Translations under genes and position numbers: made by a program | Notes under the pieces: model-generated | Database searches by the model: none | What the model was told of the DNA's origin: nothing | The model's input: only the letters and a program-made list of their open reading frames with translations | Virus record (IMG/VR): IMGVR_UViG_3300036859_000318 | Span: 1-40,735 of that record | Length of the DNA: 40,735 nt | Reading direction: 5' to 3' (one strand) | Origin: a virus | Shown here: in pieces, positions 2,320-27,788 of the stretch | How the letters are laid out: each line of letters begins with the position of its first letter | Numbering within the stretch: position 1 is the first letter of the stretch

Positions 2320-2739
2320 TCAGGGCGCGTGCCGGACGGGTGGAGGGTGAGTTCCTGCGTCCATGAAAGCGGGGTCCGGTCGCTTTTGGCACGGGAGTAC
2401 AAGTTGTCGCCCGTGACTCTTCCGCATCGGTGCGGGCATCGGGAACGCCATCGGATCGAGCGTCGCGTAGTTGATGATCGTGCCGTCGTCGGGCGCGCCG
2501 CAGTATTTGCATTGCCCGATTCCGCCGGAAGGACCGTACTGCGCGATGTAGTGAAAGCCGTCGCGACATGGATCGGGGCGCTCGTTTTCTGCCGCCTCTA
2601 GCGCGGCCTCGTGCTCGTTCTCTGCGTCGTCGAATTCTCGCTCTAGCTTTGCCACCCGATCCTCAAGTGAGGCGATCCGTTTCGCGTCATTATTTGCCGC
2701 GAATTGCAGATCTGCTAGTAAATCCTGAACCTCTGTCAT
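2320..2739 (-). CDS. Coiled-coil protein with C-terminal zinc-ribbon-like motif
   Basis: A 139-aa protein. Residues about 1-55 form a coiled coil (VQDLLADLQFAANNDAKRIA, then LEDRVAKLEREFDDAENEHE). A Cys motif follows (DPCRDGFHYIAQYG, then CKYCGAPDDG), and the tail is Pro/Met-rich. This pairing suggests an oligomeric zinc-binding protein. The ATG at 2739 shares its A with the last base of the clamp stop (TGATG), so it is probably translated by ribosomes finishing dnaN. No specific family is recognised. Confidence 0.65.
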   Translation of the reverse strand: MTEVQDLLADLQFAANNDAKRIASLEDRVAKLEREFDDAENEHEAALEAAENERPDPCRDGFHYIAQYGPSGGIGQCKYCGAPDDGTIINYATLDPMAFPMPAPMRKSHGRQLVLPCQKRPDPAFMDAGTHPPPVRHAP

Positions 2740-3830
2740 CACATCCTCCTCGGCATCACAACCTCGATATGCTCGCAATCTTCCTCGGGCGGTTCAGCGC
2801 GCAAAAGGAGCGGCGTCTCGTGAGTTGTTTTGGCGAATTCGAGAGCTACCATGTCGCCGCGCATCGCGTCAACGGCTTCCGCGAGATATCGACCATCATA
2901 CGTCGCCGCGAACTGTTCGCCGGAGTAGTCGCATGGCACGGATTCGGCCGTCTCGCCGCGCTGCGATGTAGCGGTGAGCGTCACGCGCCCGCGATCCATA
3001 GAGACAAGCAACCATTCCGAGCGCGCGACGCGTGCCCGCCGGATCGCTCCGGACAGGCCCGCCCTTTCGATGAGCGCGGATACGTGTTTAACCGGAATGA
3101 CGTTGCCGTAGTTCGGATAGTTCACGTCCTCACGCCGCGAGTAGATAGCTCGACTCCCGATCGTGAACGAAATGAATCTGTCGTCTGATCCGATTTGCGC
3201 ATTGCCTTCTCCGTCGATCGCCGCGATAAGGACATGGGCGCGGGAGGCAATCAGCGCCGAAAACTTCGCGGTTCGTGGCTGCCCGTTCATTTCGACGAGA
3301 GACATACGCCCGTCGTCAGTCGCTACGGCCGTCAGCTTTCCACCTTCGGCATGGACGAGCACGCCCTGAAGCATGAAGCCCCGAACGTCATGATCGCTGA
3401 CAGCGTGCTTCACCCGCGTGATGAGATCCTGAACGCTTGCCCACGGCGCGGTCACCTGCGCCTCGGGGCTATCCGGCATCACGGGGAAGTCATCGGCGGG
3501 GAGGGAATGCATCTGGATCGAAAACGCCCCTGACGTGACCGTGAGGCGACGATCGCTCCCGAGGGATAGGGACGCCCCTTCTTCGTGAGATTCGACGACA
3601 GAGCGGCGCAGAACGTCGAAATCGACGACGCAAGCGCCCTCTTCCTCGATCTCAGCGGGGATCGAGGTCACGAGGGTCACATCGAGATCCGTCGCCGCGA
3701 TCGTGACGCGCCCGCCCTCCGCGCGCAGCAACACGCATTTCATGATCGGAATCACGTCCCGCTTGGCGACGGCATGCGCGCAGATGCGCAACTCCTCCGC
3801 GAGCGCGTCACGTTCGGCAGTGAACCTCAC
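2739..3830 (-). CDS. dnaN: DNA polymerase III sliding clamp (beta subunit)
   Basis: This encodes the ring that encircles DNA and tethers polymerases and other enzymes. At 363 aa it matches the usual length of about 366. The three-domain repeat is visible: RDVIPIMKCVLLRAEGGRVT in domain I; TDLDVTLVTSIPA; FPVMPDSPEAQVTAP and the FMLQGVLVHAEGGKLTAVAT stretch in domain II; SRREDVNYPNYGNVIP; LTATSQRGETAES and ATYDGRYLAEAVDAM in domain III. The C-terminus, EVVMPRRM, resembles the bacterial VMPMRL end that lines the partner-binding pocket. The GTG at 3830 overlaps the upstream stop (GTGA). No polymerase or clamp loader gene is seen nearby. Identification is firm; which enzymes it serves is inference. 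Confidence 0.95.
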   Translation of the reverse strand: MRFTAERDALAEELRICAHAVAKRDVIPIMKCVLLRAEGGRVTIAATDLDVTLVTSIPAEIEEEGACVVDFDVLRRSVVESHEEGASLSLGSDRRLTVTSGAFSIQMHSLPADDFPVMPDSPEAQVTAPWASVQDLITRVKHAVSDHDVRGFMLQGVLVHAEGGKLTAVATDDGRMSLVEMNGQPRTAKFSALIASRAHVLIAAIDGEGNAQIGSDDRFISFTIGSRAIYSRREDVNYPNYGNVIPVKHVSALIERAGLSGAIRRARVARSEWLLVSMDRGRVTLTATSQRGETAESVPCDYSGEQFAATYDGRYLAEAVDAMRGDMVALEFAKTTHETPLLLRAEPPEEDCEHIEVVMPRRM

Positions 3831-4114
3831 GCCGCACCCTTCCGGGCCTTCCGGCGCGGCGTGAACGACAGCCCGACTTCTTCCTTGATTTCGCGCTTGA
3901 CCGTCATCAGTCCGGACGTGTCTTCCATGAGTCGGTACAACCCGTCCTTCTGCGTCTTTACGAGTTCGCGACCTTCGTCAAGCGAAATTTCGCCGTCGCT
4001 CACGTAGGTCAGTTGATGCGAATCTCGATCCTCGCTGAAAATGAACAAGTGTTTGACGGGGGCGGGGCGGGGGGCTTTCTTCGGTTTCGGTTCTTTCTTC
4101 GGTGCGGTACTCAT
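3827..4114 (-). CDS. Small basic protein encoded directly before the sliding clamp
   Basis: A 95-aa protein. Residues 1-22 are a Lys/Pro-rich tail (MSTAPKKEPKPKKAPRPAPV), the middle is a compact mixed region (HLFIFSEDRDSHQLTYVSDG), and the C-terminus is basic again (RRKARKGAA). The start at 4114 has a near-perfect AAAGGAGG seven bases upstream, the best site of this operon. Its message begins with the folded leader at 4115-4394. The charged tails suggest DNA or RNA binding, so regulation of its own leader is conceivable but unproven. It is translationally coupled to dnaN. Confidence 0.7.
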   Translation of the reverse strand: MSTAPKKEPKPKKAPRPAPVKHLFIFSEDRDSHQLTYVSDGEISLDEGRELVKTQKDGLYRLMEDTSGLMTVKREIKEEVGLSFTPRRKARKGAA

Positions 4115-4394
4115 TCGATTCCTCCTTTTGGTTCCCTCAATGATCCGTACCACGTACCACAACACCTACCCCGCGCCTGAAAGGTAATGGCCTTGGTCGG
4201 GGATCGAACGGTAGTGGTCTTTGACGCCGTTACGGTCCGCCGCGATACGGATCATTCAAAGAACCGGGTGATGTGCGCGAGTGCTATCTACTCGCAGAGG
4301 TTATCGCGGTAGGAAGCCGGATAACTTGACTTTTCGACCATTCTCTTTCCAGTTACCGCGCGCCCCGGAAATCAGCCGGTTGCGATCCGGCTAC
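4115..4394 (-). ncRNA. Long structured leader upstream of the basic protein/dnaN genes
   Basis: About 280 nt lie between a predicted start site and the ATG at 4114, unusual in an operon where most genes overlap. Two 20-nt arms, 4130-4149 and 4246-4265, can pair at 19 of 20 positions (two G-U, one mismatch). Inside them, 4156-4160 pairs with 4214-4218, 4169-4173 with 4198-4202, and 4181-4184 with 4191-4194, forming a nested stem. Three more hairpins precede it: 4374-4379/4387-4392, 4300-4309/4317-4325 (one bulged base) and 4277-4282/4290-4295. The Shine-Dalgarno site directly follows the long closing stem. A riboswitch-like, protein-binding or stand-alone RNA role is inferred; no known family is recognised. 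Confidence 0.5.
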
Positions 4395-4400
4395 TTGATG

Positions 4401-4409
4401 ATTATACCA
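4401..4409 (-). promoter_or_regulatory. Extended -10 promoter inside the exonuclease stop codon
   Basis: On the minus strand TGGTATAAT gives a perfect TATAAT with the TGn extension. It overlaps the TAA stop of the exonuclease gene. No good -35 is seen, which extended -10 promoters tolerate. Predicted transcription starts near 4394 and would make the folded leader plus the basic protein and dnaN genes. Confidence 0.55.
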
Positions 4410-5070
4410 GAATGCCTAACTCGCGGCGACGGTTATTGCGCGCCTCAATCATCCCTTCGGTCATGAAGCCTTCGCGAATCAGCTTCGCGCGGCACTCGCT
4501 CAGGTATTCGATGAACTGATTAACCGCCGCTGCCAGCTTCGAAATGAACTCCTCATCACGCACCGAACGCGTAATGACGCAAGGTAGCTCCGGGTTGTAG
4601 GACAATCTGTCCCACCATCGCCGTCCCGTGATCCAGAGCGCGCCTTGGATCTGACATCTTGCCTTCTCTTCTTCCGCGTGCAGCATCGCGCCTACGTGGT
4701 TAGCCGCGTTGTAGCACTTGATTTCCAGTCCGCCATCGTTACCGACGAATCGGTCAGGGGAGCACCCGACACGTCCATCATCGCGGAGGATGAAGCCGAC
4801 GCGCTGCGTTGCCGTGTCCTGCGTGAACTCGTAGAACCTCACGGCATCGCGTTCAAGCTCGCTCCCGCGCGTCATGAACATGGATTCCTGCTCATCGATG
4901 GGATGATTGAGCATTTCTTCGGCTAAAAGTTCGTGCGCGTACGGTTCGGCGGACGCGGATAGCTTCATGGTGCGAGGGGTCAAAACTCTGTGAAATTGAC
5001 TAGCCGTCGGCAGGCCCAGTCGCGCGGCTATCCAGCCATCCGATCCTTGCTCGAAATCGAGAACGATCAT
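4402..5070 (-). CDS. YqaJ/lambda-type 5'-3' exonuclease (viral recombinase)
   Basis: A 222-aa double-strand DNA exonuclease of the YqaJ/lambda Exo family, which makes single-stranded tails for the annealing protein next door. Visible motifs, in order: GSDGWIAARLGLPTASQF (residues 9-26), TRGSELERDAVRF (67-79), CSPDRF with the metal-binding Asp (103-108), GGLEIKCY with the catalytic Glu and Lys (113-120), and CQIQGALWITGRRWWD (139-154). The length is typical. The ATG overlaps the ERF stop (ATGA). The C-terminus ELGILV resembles a clamp-binding pentapeptide. Identification rests on motif order and context. Confidence 0.9.
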   Translation of the reverse strand: MIVLDFEQGSDGWIAARLGLPTASQFHRVLTPRTMKLSASAEPYAHELLAEEMLNHPIDEQESMFMTRGSELERDAVRFYEFTQDTATQRVGFILRDDGRVGCSPDRFVGNDGGLEIKCYNAANHVGAMLHAEEEKARCQIQGALWITGRRWWDRLSYNPELPCVITRSVRDEEFISKLAAAVNQFIEYLSECRAKLIREGFMTEGMIEARNNRRRELGILV

Positions 5071-5816
5071 CGCGCCGCCTTCCGGCGTTTCTGCTCCAAC
5101 GCGAGTGTTGCCGTTTTGTAGTGCCGCTGTTGGATTGATTCGAGAGAGTCGTAGCCGATGTACGCGAGAAATGCTTTCTCGTCGGCTCCGACTTCCTTCG
5201 CGAGCGCCTTCAACGTCTCGACTTGTGCGGGAGTGATCGGGTCCATTGCCGCGCCGTCTTCGTCAGGATCTACGGACGTGATGCCGAGGACTTCGACGAG
5301 CGAGACGCGTTTCGCGTAACTGAGCGCGGAGGAATACTTCTGCTGCTCCGACATCCCGGCCTTACTCTCCACGGGCGCGGTGAACGATGCCTTCTCGCTG
5401 TGTCCGTTCACGTGGCGCAAAGTACACGTGCAAACCATCAGCTTGTCGCGGACTTCAGAATCGAACGTGAACGCGAATCCGCGCGCGTAGAGTAGTGGGC
5501 GCACGACGCGCACAATATCGTTCAAGTCCGCGTATGTGTATTCAAAGGAGCCGCCGCTGCCGGTGACGATCTTCGCCGTGCGCGTCTTCTTGATGACGGG
5601 GCAGTCGTTCTGAAATGCGGCGAGTGATTCGGCGAACTCTGTCGCGGCTACGCGATCGGATATTCTCTCATGTAGCGAAACTAGTTTTTCCATCGCTACC
5701 GGATCGCATCCTTTTTCCAGAGCGAAGCGGAGAAGGTCTGTCACGTCGCGCGTGGACGTGACGCTAAGAGCGGTTTCGTCGTCACCCTTAAATACGACTG
5801 CGGTTTGGTCGCTCAT
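5067..5816 (-). CDS. erf: ERF-family single-strand DNA annealing protein
   Basis: A 249-aa protein of the ERF family (phage P22 Erf), which anneals single strands during recombination and genome circularisation. The signature lies at about residues 57-115: ATEFAESLAAFQNDCPVIKK, then TRTAKIVTG, FEYTYADLNDIVRVVRPLL and GFAFTFDSE. The central SSALSYAKRVSLVEVLGI matches the usual SAlSYArRYaL.. helix. The C-terminal 60 residues are helical and end in a basic tail, typical of the variable half. The ATG at 5816 overlaps the upstream stop, and the stop overlaps the exonuclease start, giving a Red-like pair. Confidence 0.92.
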   Translation of the reverse strand: MSDQTAVVFKGDDETALSVTSTRDVTDLLRFALEKGCDPVAMEKLVSLHERISDRVAATEFAESLAAFQNDCPVIKKTRTAKIVTGSGGSFEYTYADLNDIVRVVRPLLYARGFAFTFDSEVRDKLMVCTCTLRHVNGHSEKASFTAPVESKAGMSEQQKYSSALSYAKRVSLVEVLGITSVDPDEDGAAMDPITPAQVETLKALAKEVGADEKAFLAYIGYDSLESIQQRHYKTATLALEQKRRKAAR

Positions 5817-6444: not shown

Positions 6445-6575
6445 GCCTCCGTTGCCCCCCCCCCCGCGAAGATCCCGCGCGCATCCTTGAGAACTTTCAG
6501 CACGGCGCGTTCGTCGTCGGTGAGGGCGGGAGCCGGAGTGCCGTAGCACAGAAAAGCGACGCGCTTGCCGTCCAT
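6441..6575 (-). CDS. Tiny protein ending in an 11-G homopolymer
   Basis: A 44-aa protein (MDGKRVAFLCYGTPAPALTD, then DERAVLKVLKDARGIFAGGG). The three Gly codons come from eleven consecutive Gs (Cs on the plus strand at 6455-6465), five codons before the stop. The ATG at 6575 overlaps the preceding stop by one base (TGATG). Slippage on the G run would fuse it to the 47-aa downstream frame, giving about 87 aa. Function unknown. Confidence 0.55.
   Translation of the reverse strand: MDGKRVAFLCYGTPAPALTDDERAVLKVLKDARGIFAGGGATEA
6455..6465. repeat. Homopolymer C11 (G11 on the coding strand)
   Basis: Eleven consecutive C bases inside the coding region of the 44-aa gene, close to the point where two overlapping frames meet. 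Such a run is a hotspot for polymerase or ribosome slippage and also for assembly length errors. Confidence 0.9.
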
Positions 6576-22102: not shown

Positions 22103-24606
22103 AGGTTGTTCGTCCCTGCCGTTGGATTCGCGGCCGGATACTCGCCACGTTTTATCTGTATCGTTGCATCGAGAACGCTCAGCGAAAAGTTCCCCTCCCC
22201 GCCGTAGCCCGAATGCTCAATGCGTGGGAGGACACTCGGTCCCATCTGCCAGACTACCATCGGATCACGGATCTTGCCACCCGGCGACGTGTTCAGCGTC
22301 ATTTGATGCGACTTCGGGAAGGTGACGCCCTCATTGAACGAAACGTAAGCCGTCGTCGTCTGGCTCGCGCTCGCCTGCGCAACGGTTGACGAATGGTGAA
22401 CGCCGATCTCTTCCAGAATCGCGTCCCATCGCGGCGCAGTCATCTCCAGCGGCTTCAACCAAAGATCCGCGACCACGGGAAGCGTGCCGCTGTTGCTGAT
22501 CGTGTCGTACGCTCCGTCGTCAGTATCCTCGCACGTCCATGTGACGGTATTGTCAACTACCGTACTACCTGCCGCCGTGGGCCAAGTCGGTTCCGTCGTC
22601 GCGTGCGAAGTGCCGCCCGTCGTCGCGCGGTATCGGAATCCATTCGCAGTCGTCGGGACGACTGTGTAGTTCGTCGTGTACGCTCGCGCGACTGCCCACG
22701 CGGGGAACGACATCTGCGCGCGCGTGAGTCCGGCCGTTCCTGCCGCGGCCGTCCCCCATGCCACGTACATCGTTTGCGTATTCGGGTTGTAAAGCATGTC
22801 GCGGACTTCGTAGCCGGTCGGGGTGAGCGATGATCCGCCGCCCGCATCGAGGAACGACCACGCCTGATAGTCGAGATGGTAGACGTAGATCCGCCCCTTT
22901 TGCGTGTACACCCACACCTGCCGGTCTTTCTTGTGGACGCGGAGAATCGGGAGATTGTACGTCGCCTGCGATTCAACCCACGTTGCGGAATCCTTGTTCA
23001 GAATTTCCTCGCGCATGCCGTCGCCGCACAACGGTTCCGGAGGCACGCCCGGTTTCATCCGGTAAACCTCATTCTCGCCGATAAAGTACCACCATCCCTC
23101 AAACTCGTCGTGCGCGCGAGGACCGAGGCACCCGACGCCGACAAGCACGTCCTCGGGCAGGATCGGATTCGCGGCGTCAGACGTTGCGTTGAAAATCCAC
23201 ACCGCATTTCGTTTCGCCGCGAGAAGCCTATTGCCGACAGACTTCAGGGCGGTACCGCGTCCCGCGATGTCCGTGCAGCGGTAGAAGTTGGATGCGATGA
23301 CATTCGCAGCCTCACCGGGTTCTGACCACACGACCTGATCTGAGATATTCTCTGTACCGACAGTTCCGGATTCCGTGTTCATGAACGGATGCTTGAACGA
23401 TGACAAAACTATCTGATGGCCGTAATTGCGCTTATCTGCCGCGCCATCAGTCAGGCCGTCCTTATAGGCGAATCGCACGGCCGCGAGCGTTGCCAAGGTT
23501 GCCGTACTGCTGTTACCAAATTTCAAGCGCGCTGCGATTCGCGTAGAACTCGGCGTCTTCAGCGATCCTGTTACGTAAAACGATTGGAAATCCGGCGTGT
23601 CAGAAACCGACGGGACGGTGATGTCCTGTTGCGCGAGAATGTCTGAACCTTCAAGTGTCCAGACCACGCTGCCATCGGCAGTCGTTCCTCCGGGTGTCGT
23701 GCCCCACACAGGCTCACCAGCCGCAGACGTTCCGGCAGTCGTAACCCGATAGCGAAAACCATTCGGCGCCGTTGGTGTGCGAATCGCTCCGAGCGAATAC
23801 GCGGTCGCGGTAGCCCATACGTAGTTAATGTAAATCTGCTGCGTCATCGGGACGCGATACGTCTCGTGATCTCCGGCGAGTTGCGCTAGATATGTGATGT
23901 CAGTCGGCCCGGTGATGGAGATCGTGAGATTTGTTGTTTGTAGCGCCGAGTTCGTTGTGACGGTTGGAAGAATCCGATACGTTACCGTTGATCCGGATGT
24001 GATCGTATCGACGTTCGTAGTAGAACGCGACCACACGGCCGGATCATAGGCGTAGCTAGTCGAAAGCTGATTAGTGAAATTAAGCGTGGCCCCGAACGCA
24101 AACAAACGATCAATATAGGATTCGAGCGCGGATGGACGAATGCCGTTATTGACGGGACCAAACGCGAGATTCGGGATCGGTAGAGATGTTGAATTGGATG
24201 CAAACGAGTCGGTATTGTTTCCGGCTAGCGAATTTAACGTGATGTAGATTTGCCCGTGGTAATTGACCGCGTTGAGGATACGCAAGGCGTTAAACGACGA
24301 GCTATTGAACGAAACAGAATTCAACTCGCCGCTTACGGCCTTAAGATAGAAATCGTTACTATCGTTGAAGAAGAACAAGCGTGTAACCTTGTTCGCTCCG
24401 TCCTCGAAATTCATGAGTCCCGATACGCCAACGACGTTATCGAACGTGAACGGCGCGCGCACCGGCATACGCGGCCCCGGCCGCACGAGCAGGTTACGCA
24501 TTCTCCGGCAATATCCGTCAGGAATCTGCGACGCGTCGCCAGATGAATACTGACCCCTCAGGAAGGGGACCGGAATCGTTGGGCGCGGATCGGCAATTTT
24601 CGGCAT
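22099..24606 (-). CDS. Nozzle-like tail protein with two Ig/carbohydrate-binding-like insert modules
   Basis: An 835-aa beta-rich protein. The N-terminus (PVPFLRGQYSSGDASQIPDG, then CRRMRNLLVRPGPRMPVRAP, FFFNDSNDFYLKAVSGE, ALRILNAVNYHGQIYITLNS) follows the layout of podovirus nozzle proteins (T7 gp12, P22 gp10 type), in which a list of strands builds a beta-propeller around the DNA channel. A later stretch (GTALKSVGNRLLAAKRNAVW, GWWYFIGENEVYRMKPGVPP) fits propeller blades. Two related modules are inserted: GFRYRVTTAGTSAAGEPVWG... near 23655-23766 and GFRYRATTGGTSHATTEPTW... near 22528-22645. The ATG at 24606 follows the previous stop by one base. Confidence 0.7.
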   Translation of the reverse strand: MPKIADPRPTIPVPFLRGQYSSGDASQIPDGYCRRMRNLLVRPGPRMPVRAPFTFDNVVGVSGLMNFEDGANKVTRLFFFNDSNDFYLKAVSGELNSVSFNSSSFNALRILNAVNYHGQIYITLNSLAGNNTDSFASNSTSLPIPNLAFGPVNNGIRPSALESYIDRLFAFGATLNFTNQLSTSYAYDPAVWSRSTTNVDTITSGSTVTYRILPTVTTNSALQTTNLTISITGPTDITYLAQLAGDHETYRVPMTQQIYINYVWATATAYSLGAIRTPTAPNGFRYRVTTAGTSAAGEPVWGTTPGGTTADGSVVWTLEGSDILAQQDITVPSVSDTPDFQSFYVTGSLKTPSSTRIAARLKFGNSSTATLATLAAVRFAYKDGLTDGAADKRNYGHQIVLSSFKHPFMNTESGTVGTENISDQVVWSEPGEAANVIASNFYRCTDIAGRGTALKSVGNRLLAAKRNAVWIFNATSDAANPILPEDVLVGVGCLGPRAHDEFEGWWYFIGENEVYRMKPGVPPEPLCGDGMREEILNKDSATWVESQATYNLPILRVHKKDRQVWVYTQKGRIYVYHLDYQAWSFLDAGGGSSLTPTGYEVRDMLYNPNTQTMYVAWGTAAAGTAGLTRAQMSFPAWAVARAYTTNYTVVPTTANGFRYRATTGGTSHATTEPTWPTAAGSTVVDNTVTWTCEDTDDGAYDTISNSGTLPVVADLWLKPLEMTAPRWDAILEEIGVHHSSTVAQASASQTTTAYVSFNEGVTFPKSHQMTLNTSPGGKIRDPMVVWQMGPSVLPRIEHSGYGGEGNFSLSVLDATIQIKRGEYPAANPTAGTNNL

Positions 24607-25770: not shown

Positions 25771-26255
25771 GGATCGTACCGCACGCTGAAGTAGCCGATC
25801 TGGATGTCGTTTGCTGTCGCGACGCCGTTAGTTCCAACTGCCGCAATGAGTAATGTGGACGCGAAATCGATCGACGGGAATGCGAGGAGTGTAGTGGTTT
25901 GATTCGTCACCCCAACGCGACCATTCGGCATGACTTTCCCCGTCGAAGCAGTGACGCGTGCAACCTTGACCCGAATCCACCAGAACGTGTTATTGGGGGC
26001 GGTTGTGACGGCGTTCACGGCGTACGAATTCGCGCCGATTTCAATGGCCATCGTTTTCGTGTTCGCATTTGCCGCAACACTTCCGGCAGCTTCGATGACT
26101 AATTCCTGCCCCGCCGCACCAAGTTGACCGGCCGCAACGGTGTAACTGGCGAGCGTCTTCTTCGTCGTGTTCGCGTCCGTCCCAACCGTGTCCGTCGTGA
26201 CGTATAGCAATCCCGCAGCGTGTGCCACTCCATCCACCTCTTTCCAGTCAGGCAT
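25767..26255 (-). CDS. Beta-rich virion surface/decoration-type protein
   Basis: A 162-aa protein starting MPDWKEVDGVAHAAGLLYVT. The core (TLASYTVAAGQLGAAGQELV, IEAAGSVAANANTKTMAIEI, NTFWWIRVKVARVTASTGKV, FASTLLIAAVGTNGVATAND) shows the jelly-roll-like pattern TLa.Ytv.ag.L...g..l.i.a.G..a.n.n.Kt. common in phage fibre and decoration proteins. AGG stands just before the ATG at 26255, which overlaps the methyltransferase end by eight bases. Confidence 0.65.
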   Translation of the reverse strand: MPDWKEVDGVAHAAGLLYVTTDTVGTDANTTKKTLASYTVAAGQLGAAGQELVIEAAGSVAANANTKTMAIEIGANSYAVNAVTTAPNNTFWWIRVKVARVTASTGKVMPNGRVGVTNQTTTLLAFPSIDFASTLLIAAVGTNGVATANDIQIGYFSVRYDP

Positions 26256-26970
26256 TCGCGGCCTCCGGCATCGGTTCTTTCCGGAGGACCACGGCGATAT
26301 CGTCAATCACGTTGAAGCAATGCACCTTGTCCCACGCTATGCGCTCTTCCGAGAAACCGGCGCTTTCGTAATCCTCGTGCGGCGCGAAGTAAAACTCTCC
26401 GTTCAAAACGGAGAAGTTCACGCGGTCCCGCGCATGCTCCTGCTTTTCTCGCACGAGCCAATCCCATGATAGGTACGCGAAACGCGCCTCGAAAACGGGT
26501 TGCTTGTGATCCGGATCTTGGAAGTACCGGCTGTTGAGAAAGTACGGCGCTTTGATGATGTAGTGCCCGCCCGGTTTGAGCACGCGGTACGCCTCGCGGA
26601 AGTGCAGATTCCAGTCCGGCACGTGTTCAAGAAAGTGCGAGGAATGGAGGAGATCAACGGATTCGTCGCGGATGCGAAGCGTTGCGCCGAAGACTTCGCG
26701 CTCTTCTCCCTTGTCGATATCGAAGGCCATCACGGACGGGTAGTAAACAGACCACGGCTCACGGTAGAGGTCCGCCTTCCGAATGCGCTCGCCAGTAGCA
26801 TACAGATCAAGCCCAATGTAATCGGGCTCCGGCCGCTGTCCGCATCCGAGATCATAGAGCAGAGGAGATTCAACCGTGCGGCGAATCTCAGTAAGCAATT
26901 CCGCCTCAACCGCAAGAATCGTCCGCGTCTTCTCTTTCTTCGCCTTCCGCTTCGCTGCGACTTCATCCAT
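26248..26970 (-). CDS. SAM-dependent methyltransferase (class I)
   Basis: A 240-aa enzyme. Motif I, LLYDLGCGQRPEPDYIGLDL (residues 37-56), binds S-adenosylmethionine. Later come a loop with SHFLEHVPDW (111-120) and AYRVLKPGGHYIIKAPYF (127-144), the usual strand 5 of type-11 methyltransferases. A charged N-terminal helix precedes the fold (MDEVAAKRKAKKEKTRTILA). The gene starts at a TAATG overlap with the glycosyltransferase gene, so the two are co-expressed. No DNA methyltransferase motif (DPPY type) is present. A sugar or protein on the virion or host surface is a more likely substrate than DNA, which is inference. Confidence 0.8.
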   Translation of the reverse strand: MDEVAAKRKAKKEKTRTILAVEAELLTEIRRTVESPLLYDLGCGQRPEPDYIGLDLYATGERIRKADLYREPWSVYYPSVMAFDIDKGEEREVFGATLRIRDESVDLLHSSHFLEHVPDWNLHFREAYRVLKPGGHYIIKAPYFLNSRYFQDPDHKQPVFEARFAYLSWDWLVREKQEHARDRVNFSVLNGEFYFAPHEDYESAGFSEERIAWDKVHCFNVIDDIAVVLRKEPMPEAANA

Positions 26971-27788
26971 TAATAGATCCTTCCCGTTTTGAAATCCATG
27001 TGCCCGACCTTGACGCCGCAGTTGACGCCGAACCGCGCGCCCGCTTCCTTCTTCGCCTTCCGGCAGAAATAGAGATCCTGCGTCGTTCCGCCCTCGGTCG
27101 CGAACCACGGCTCGGAGACGCGCGAGAAGAGTTCCTTACGCCACATCGCGCAGCCCATCCCGATCCCGTTTACTTCAATCGTCTCACCCTCGGACACTGC
27201 GCGCTTCACGCTCTGCGGTCGGAAATCGTTCGGATCTTTCTTCGGGTCGCCATACGCCATCGGTCGCGTAGGAATACTCTTCGTCATATAGAGTCCCGAC
27301 ATGGCATCATAGCCATGATGCCCGTTCGCGCATTCCCATGACTTGCCATTGATTTCTTCGCCGCAATCAGGGCACACGTAGAGTGATGCAAATAGACTCT
27401 CGATGGCATCGCGCGGGATGATATTGTCTTCCTCGGTCGTGAGCACGAACGACGTAGACGCGATGATGTCGGCACCCTCGCGCGTGAATTTCTCTTCTGC
27501 TGCGGCGTCATCCGTTGCCCACTTGAAGAGGTTGTTGTATGCCTCCCCGACTTCAAGGCCGATCGTGATCAATCGGAACGATCGCTGCGTGTTCATTGGC
27601 CACGAAATTTGATCCCACGATTCCGCGATCTTCACGTGGAACATTCCCGTCTTCATCGGGATACACCATGTCACCGACTGATCAAGCCAATTCTTCGTGT
27701 GCTCGAATGTATCGAGAATTTCGGTGCGAAAGCCGAGAGCCCCTTCATGTAAAGACTTGCCCTCGACGGGTCGAATGACTGCGCTCAT
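26970..27788 (-). CDS. GT-A-like glycosyltransferase with an apparent zinc-ribbon insertion
   Basis: A 272-aa protein. FVLTTEEDNIIP (about 114-125) resembles the acidic metal/sugar-nucleotide site of family 2-type transferases. EVNGIGMGCAMWRKELFSRV (205-224), PWFATEGGTTQDLYFCRKAK (227-246) and CGVKVGHMD (257-265) match the C-terminal acceptor part, where TQDLYFC takes the place of the usual (S/G)EDvyf. Between them lies YVCPDCGEEINGKSWECANG plus HH, a four-ligand Cys/His ribbon. The role may be virion protein or glycan decoration together with the methyltransferase, with which it overlaps (TAATG). Family identification is good; substrate unknown. Confidence 0.7.
   Translation of the reverse strand: MSAVIRPVEGKSLHEGALGFRTEILDTFEHTKNWLDQSVTWCIPMKTGMFHVKIAESWDQISWPMNTQRSFRLITIGLEVGEAYNNLFKWATDDAAAEEKFTREGADIIASTSFVLTTEEDNIIPRDAIESLFASLYVCPDCGEEINGKSWECANGHHGYDAMSGLYMTKSIPTRPMAYGDPKKDPNDFRPQSVKRAVSEGETIEVNGIGMGCAMWRKELFSRVSEPWFATEGGTTQDLYFCRKAKKEAGARFGVNCGVKVGHMDFKTGRIY

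Follow-up and report, generated by a model that had tools for sequence, protein, structure and literature searches.

The DNA analysed here is a virus record of 40,735 bases, called the window below, in which the operon under study lies on the minus strand. The operon encodes proteins of recombination and replication, and neighbouring genes from ERF over the exonuclease and the basic protein to DnaN overlap by 4 bases, with the interval 4401-4115 as the exception. The features of the locus, from upstream to downstream, are:

5067-5816, minus strand: ERF single-strand annealing protein (Pfam PF04404)
4402-5070, minus strand: YqaJ-type viral recombinase/exonuclease (Pfam PF09588)
4401-4409, minus strand: extended -10 promoter-like site TGGTATAAT, in which TAA is the exonuclease stop codon; transcript start expected near 4394
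4115-4401, minus strand: leader, a 287-nt gap without a convincing gene according to the list of open reading frames (ORFs) and a codon-usage census
4288-4341, minus strand: 17-codon ORF MVEKSSYPASYRDNLCE, a weak candidate for a leader peptide (codon score 0.187)
4296-4300, minus strand: CCUCU, a weak candidate for an anti-Shine-Dalgarno partner
4241-4265, minus strand: 5' arm of the long stem P1, forming 24 of 25 possible pairs with 4130-4154
4155-4240, minus strand: sequence enclosed by P1, 86 nt
4130-4154, minus strand: 3' arm of P1, pairing with 4241-4265 and ending 3 nt before AGGAGG
4121-4126, minus strand: Shine-Dalgarno site AGGAGG of the basic-protein gene, 6 nt before the ATG at 4114
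3827-4114, minus strand: small basic protein of 95 amino acids without relatives found, overlapping dnaN by 4 nt
2739-3830, minus strand: DnaN, DNA polymerase III beta sliding clamp (all three domains found with Pfam)

The basic protein gave no Pfam match, and its single-sequence structure model (pLDDT 51) was uninformative. An extension of this protein to a GTG start at 4165 was rejected because the ATG at 4114 has a strong Shine-Dalgarno site. Downstream of dnaN, a DUF1064 family protein (Pfam PF06356) is encoded at 955-1368.

A sequence-only reading had described the gap of 287 bases as geneless and as beginning with an extended -10 element inside the exonuclease stop codon. Both descriptions hold. 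The gap extends on the minus strand from the exonuclease stop (4402) to the basic-protein ATG (4114), and the window contains no exact TGNTATAAT other than TGGTATAAT at 4409-4401, against an expectation of 0.19. Among the matches listed for this element, no -35 was present. Judged by its sequence, the site is a putative promoter, whose activity we infer. On the minus strand, no terminator-like site was found within the leader (4115-4401).

Other candidates in the gap were dismissed. A 29-codon ORF (4255-4166) has mildly coding-like codons and is without a Shine-Dalgarno site; among out-of-frame ATG ORFs, 4% score as coding-like as the 17- and 29-codon ORFs of the leader. The motif GTTCGATCC resembles a T loop, but ARAGORN detected no tRNA in the leader.

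The long stem P1 and the remainder of the leader

When read as minus-strand RNA, P1 consists of 20 Watson-Crick pairs, four G-U pairs and one G·G mismatch over 25 positions. The sequence-only reading had given the arms as 20 nt long with 19 paired positions. The arms are present and in fact reach 25 nt with 24 pairs if G-U is counted, but the shorter description is insufficient on its own, because 0.75 matches of that quality per strand arise by chance. For 24 of 25 pairs with a loop of at most 200 nt, a criterion that was picked after the arms had been seen, 0.01 occurrences are expected per strand in a 40.7-kb window (100 first-order Markov simulations). No stem of this quality was present in 17 other phage loci (159 kb in total). 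The arms are located within a gap that makes up 0.7% of the window. A second inverted repeat, at 23854-23937, pairs at 23 of 25 positions on the plus strand (about 0.16 expected per strand); the large structural gene that contains it has a head-decoration match.

In a sliding scan of both strands, the 140-nt segment at 4126 on the minus strand reached a z-score of -4.87 and ranked first of 1158 in excess stability, with a grid that was aligned to the P1 site and gave it a slight advantage. A 146-nt segment compared with 200 shuffles yielded z-scores of -4.40 for the minus strand and -2.21 for the plus strand; a separate shuffle test gave -3.99 and -2.49, respectively. Four of the five positions that are not Watson-Crick pairs are G-U on the minus strand. 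The four G-U pairs and the better folding of this strand show that the pairing favours minus-strand RNA. Pair probabilities were 0.98-1 in every context tried, except for the innermost pair (0.57) and the G·G. P1 is thus a real and statistically unusual stem.

The same does not apply to the rest of the leader, which had been called highly folded. The 86 nt enclosed by P1 fold slightly worse than their shuffled counterparts (z +0.74); upstream of the stem, the leader (4266-4397) folds like shuffled sequence (z -0.64). A nested three-part stem proposed for the interior competes with many alternative folds within 1 kcal/mol. Two small hairpins upstream of the arms were equalled by 3 of 150 and 8 of 150 shuffles, values obtained after post hoc selection. 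Since interior and upstream leader fold no better than shuffled DNA, the data support one long stem closing a plain loop, not an elaborate, riboswitch-like RNA. The earlier statement that no known RNA class is recognisable agrees with a comparison of the leader with the Rfam covariance models, in which no match was obtained at the gathering score or even at an E-value of 10.

The strong Shine-Dalgarno site had been placed right after the closing stem, and AGGAGG indeed begins 3 nt past P1. In most predicted folds part of it pairs with leader sequence or with downstream C-rich codons, and for this reason it is uncertain whether the start site can be called exposed. One of the possible partners is CCUCU (4300-4296), which falls in the final codons of the 17-codon ORF (4288-4341). 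Its pairing with the Shine-Dalgarno site has a probability of 0.12-0.5 in longer folds and up to 0.99 in the shortest. Such pairing would allow a translational switch, but matches of this kind are common by chance.

Relatives of the locus

Comparison of the leader DNA with phages and plasmids yielded no match, and the pattern of the two arms was absent from IMG/VR. In GTDB genomes (257 Gb) the pattern matched once, inside a UDP-glucose dehydrogenase-like gene, which by our estimate is about the number expected by chance. With DnaN, the exonuclease and the basic protein as single queries, no relative was found in IMG/VR. The ERF query and alignments of two to three sequences led to phages with an ERF-exonuclease pair, with exonuclease identities of 41-64%. 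Leader and basic protein were detected in none of these relatives, in which either other genes or an unrelated gap follow the exonuclease gene. BLAST detected no DnaN in the fetched flanks, at a sensitivity that distant clamps would escape. In six annotated phages with a distant DnaN (26-29% identity), dnaN overlaps the previous gene or starts 5-75 nt behind it. Because the leader-to-dnaN module was not detected in the ERF-exonuclease relatives and dnaN immediately follows another gene in the annotated phages, the module appears to be peculiar to this phage among those seen.

In one relative (L003:7370-7420), a stretch that resembles the C-terminus of the window exonuclease (4402-4440) is found out of frame behind the exonuclease stop. 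Its ERRRELG corresponds to NRRRELG in the window, which suggests that the 3' end of the exonuclease gene is a recombination junction. Two further relatives (L012:7472-7885 and L013:3413-3826) encode a protein resembling a single-strand DNA-binding protein directly after the ERF-exonuclease pair, in the place occupied by the basic protein and DnaN in this phage.

Possible function of the stem

P1 most likely shapes or processes the message and would then be an ordinary kind of control element. From the computed stem, its position and its strand preference we infer a possible course of transcription, cleavage and effect on translation. A minus-strand transcript would reach the basic-protein and dnaN genes by read-through or from the extended -10 site at 4401-4409. 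It would fold into one cis-acting stem of 24 bp with a single G·G, an 86-nt loop and an end 3 nt before the Shine-Dalgarno site. This stem probably shields the start site from the message ahead of it, and host RNase III is likely to target it. After a cut by the enzyme, the start site would be exposed behind a short leader, and the clamp message would be split from the exonuclease message. Lambda, T7 and T3 RNAs are cut by RNase III, which can also open up blocked start sites, as in adhE and lambda cIII (PMC5371410). The minimum target size used there was 22 nt (PMC5371410), and P1, with 24 pairs over 25 positions interrupted by one G·G, exceeds this length. Proven sites fit the consensus boxes of the enzyme poorly (PMC5371410).

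We tentatively favour this reading, in which a cis-acting stem insulates the start site of the basic-protein and clamp genes or, after cleavage by RNase III, exposes it. It is preferred because 3 nt separate the stem from the Shine-Dalgarno site, because its 24 pairs exceed the 22-nt minimum and because a parallel is known from cspA (see below). That only the stem is unusual, and not its interior, suits a double-strand substrate or a spacer better than an aptamer. Of the cis-regulatory RNA that had been proposed, statistics and position support the cis-acting stem. The riboswitch is unsupported, since nothing inside P1 exceeds chance and the Rfam search was empty, and a transcription attenuator is unsupported because the leader is without a minus-strand terminator-like site.

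The leader might instead be a regulated translational operator, in which a bound protein (the basic protein, the clamp or a phage repressor) or a ligand alters which partner the Shine-Dalgarno site pairs with, CCUCU being one example. This is possible but unlikely. The ability of CCUCU to pair with AGGAGG (0.12-0.5 in longer folds), the weakly coding-like codons of the 17-codon leader peptide and the autorepression of T4 gp43 and gp32 via leader structures (PMC3014915) are in line with it. However, neither the P1 interior nor the upstream leader shows excess structure, the leader has many alternative folds, Rfam gave no match and an anti-Shine-Dalgarno match of 5 bases will often arise by chance within 200 nt. 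It is doubtful, too, that P1 belongs to an undescribed phage RNA regulator that sets the synthesis of sliding clamp and basic protein by presenting a start site switchable by the leader peptide or the basic protein. Rather unlikely as well is a chance complementarity in an intergenic gap without any function. By chance, the looser 19/20 pairing turns up about 0.75 times per strand, the choice of 24/25 was made post hoc and no homologue was found that would show the stem to be conserved; set against this are the 0.01 occurrences expected per strand over the window, of which the gap forms only 0.7%, and the base rate of zero in 159 kb of real phage DNA.

We consider it improbable that the arms act at the level of DNA, as terminal inverted repeats of a small mobile element (136 bp) or as a site for protein binding or replication. 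The 20 of 25 Watson-Crick positions and the unremarkable interior are as in small inverted-repeat elements, and the gap coincides with a junction of modules immediately after the exonuclease gene. Yet inspection of the flanks revealed no target duplication, the window holds no second copy, direct repeats were not found, and no plasmid or phage match was obtained; the arm pattern is absent from IMG/VR, and its one match in a coding gene of GTDB is about the chance number. Moreover, four of the five mismatches retain pairing only in minus-strand RNA. Very improbable is a stable small RNA that is freed from the leader and acts in trans. The long closing stem could protect an RNA of 136 nt and a promoter-like site lies just upstream, but no minus-strand terminator-like site follows the stem, which is directly joined to a translated gene, and the candidate RNA has an unstructured interior and no homologue that could be found.

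For the favoured insulating or RNase III-processed stem, comparable elements are known. Like the RNase III sites in T7, T3 and lambda transcripts (named in PMC5371410), P1 would be a stretch of double-stranded RNA within a polycistronic phage message, located between genes or ahead of them. Typical phage RNase III sites are local hairpins with short loops, whereas the P1 loop of 86 nt exceeds these. The nearest well-studied parallel found is the cspA leader of S. aureus, whose 5'-UTR forms an almost perfect helix of 32 bp that RNase III cuts, with a gain in mRNA stability and translation (PMC3386247). Both leaders place a long, nearly perfect helix upstream of the Shine-Dalgarno site; in cspA cleavage and effect were demonstrated, whereas the phage stem of 24 bp with its 86-nt loop is a prediction. 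In T4, the replication proteins gp43 and gp32 are translational autorepressors that act through structures in the leader (PMC3014915), and these likewise lie close to where a phage replication gene starts. The operator of gene 43 is a hairpin of 18 bases and that of gene 32 a pseudoknot (PMC3014915), in contrast to the 24-bp stem of P1 without a known binding protein.

If functional, P1 would provide post-transcriptional control of a phage-encoded sliding clamp, the supply of which could be set apart from that of the recombination genes in the same operon. As long stems in phage leaders are already known as control elements, its value would be the unusual target gene and not a new mechanism.

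Two further observations concern other parts of the window. A run of 11 C at 6455-6465 in the early region, near small overlapping ORFs, may be a length error of sequencing or assembly or a slippage site. A methyltransferase-like protein is encoded at 26248-27108 among the structural genes.
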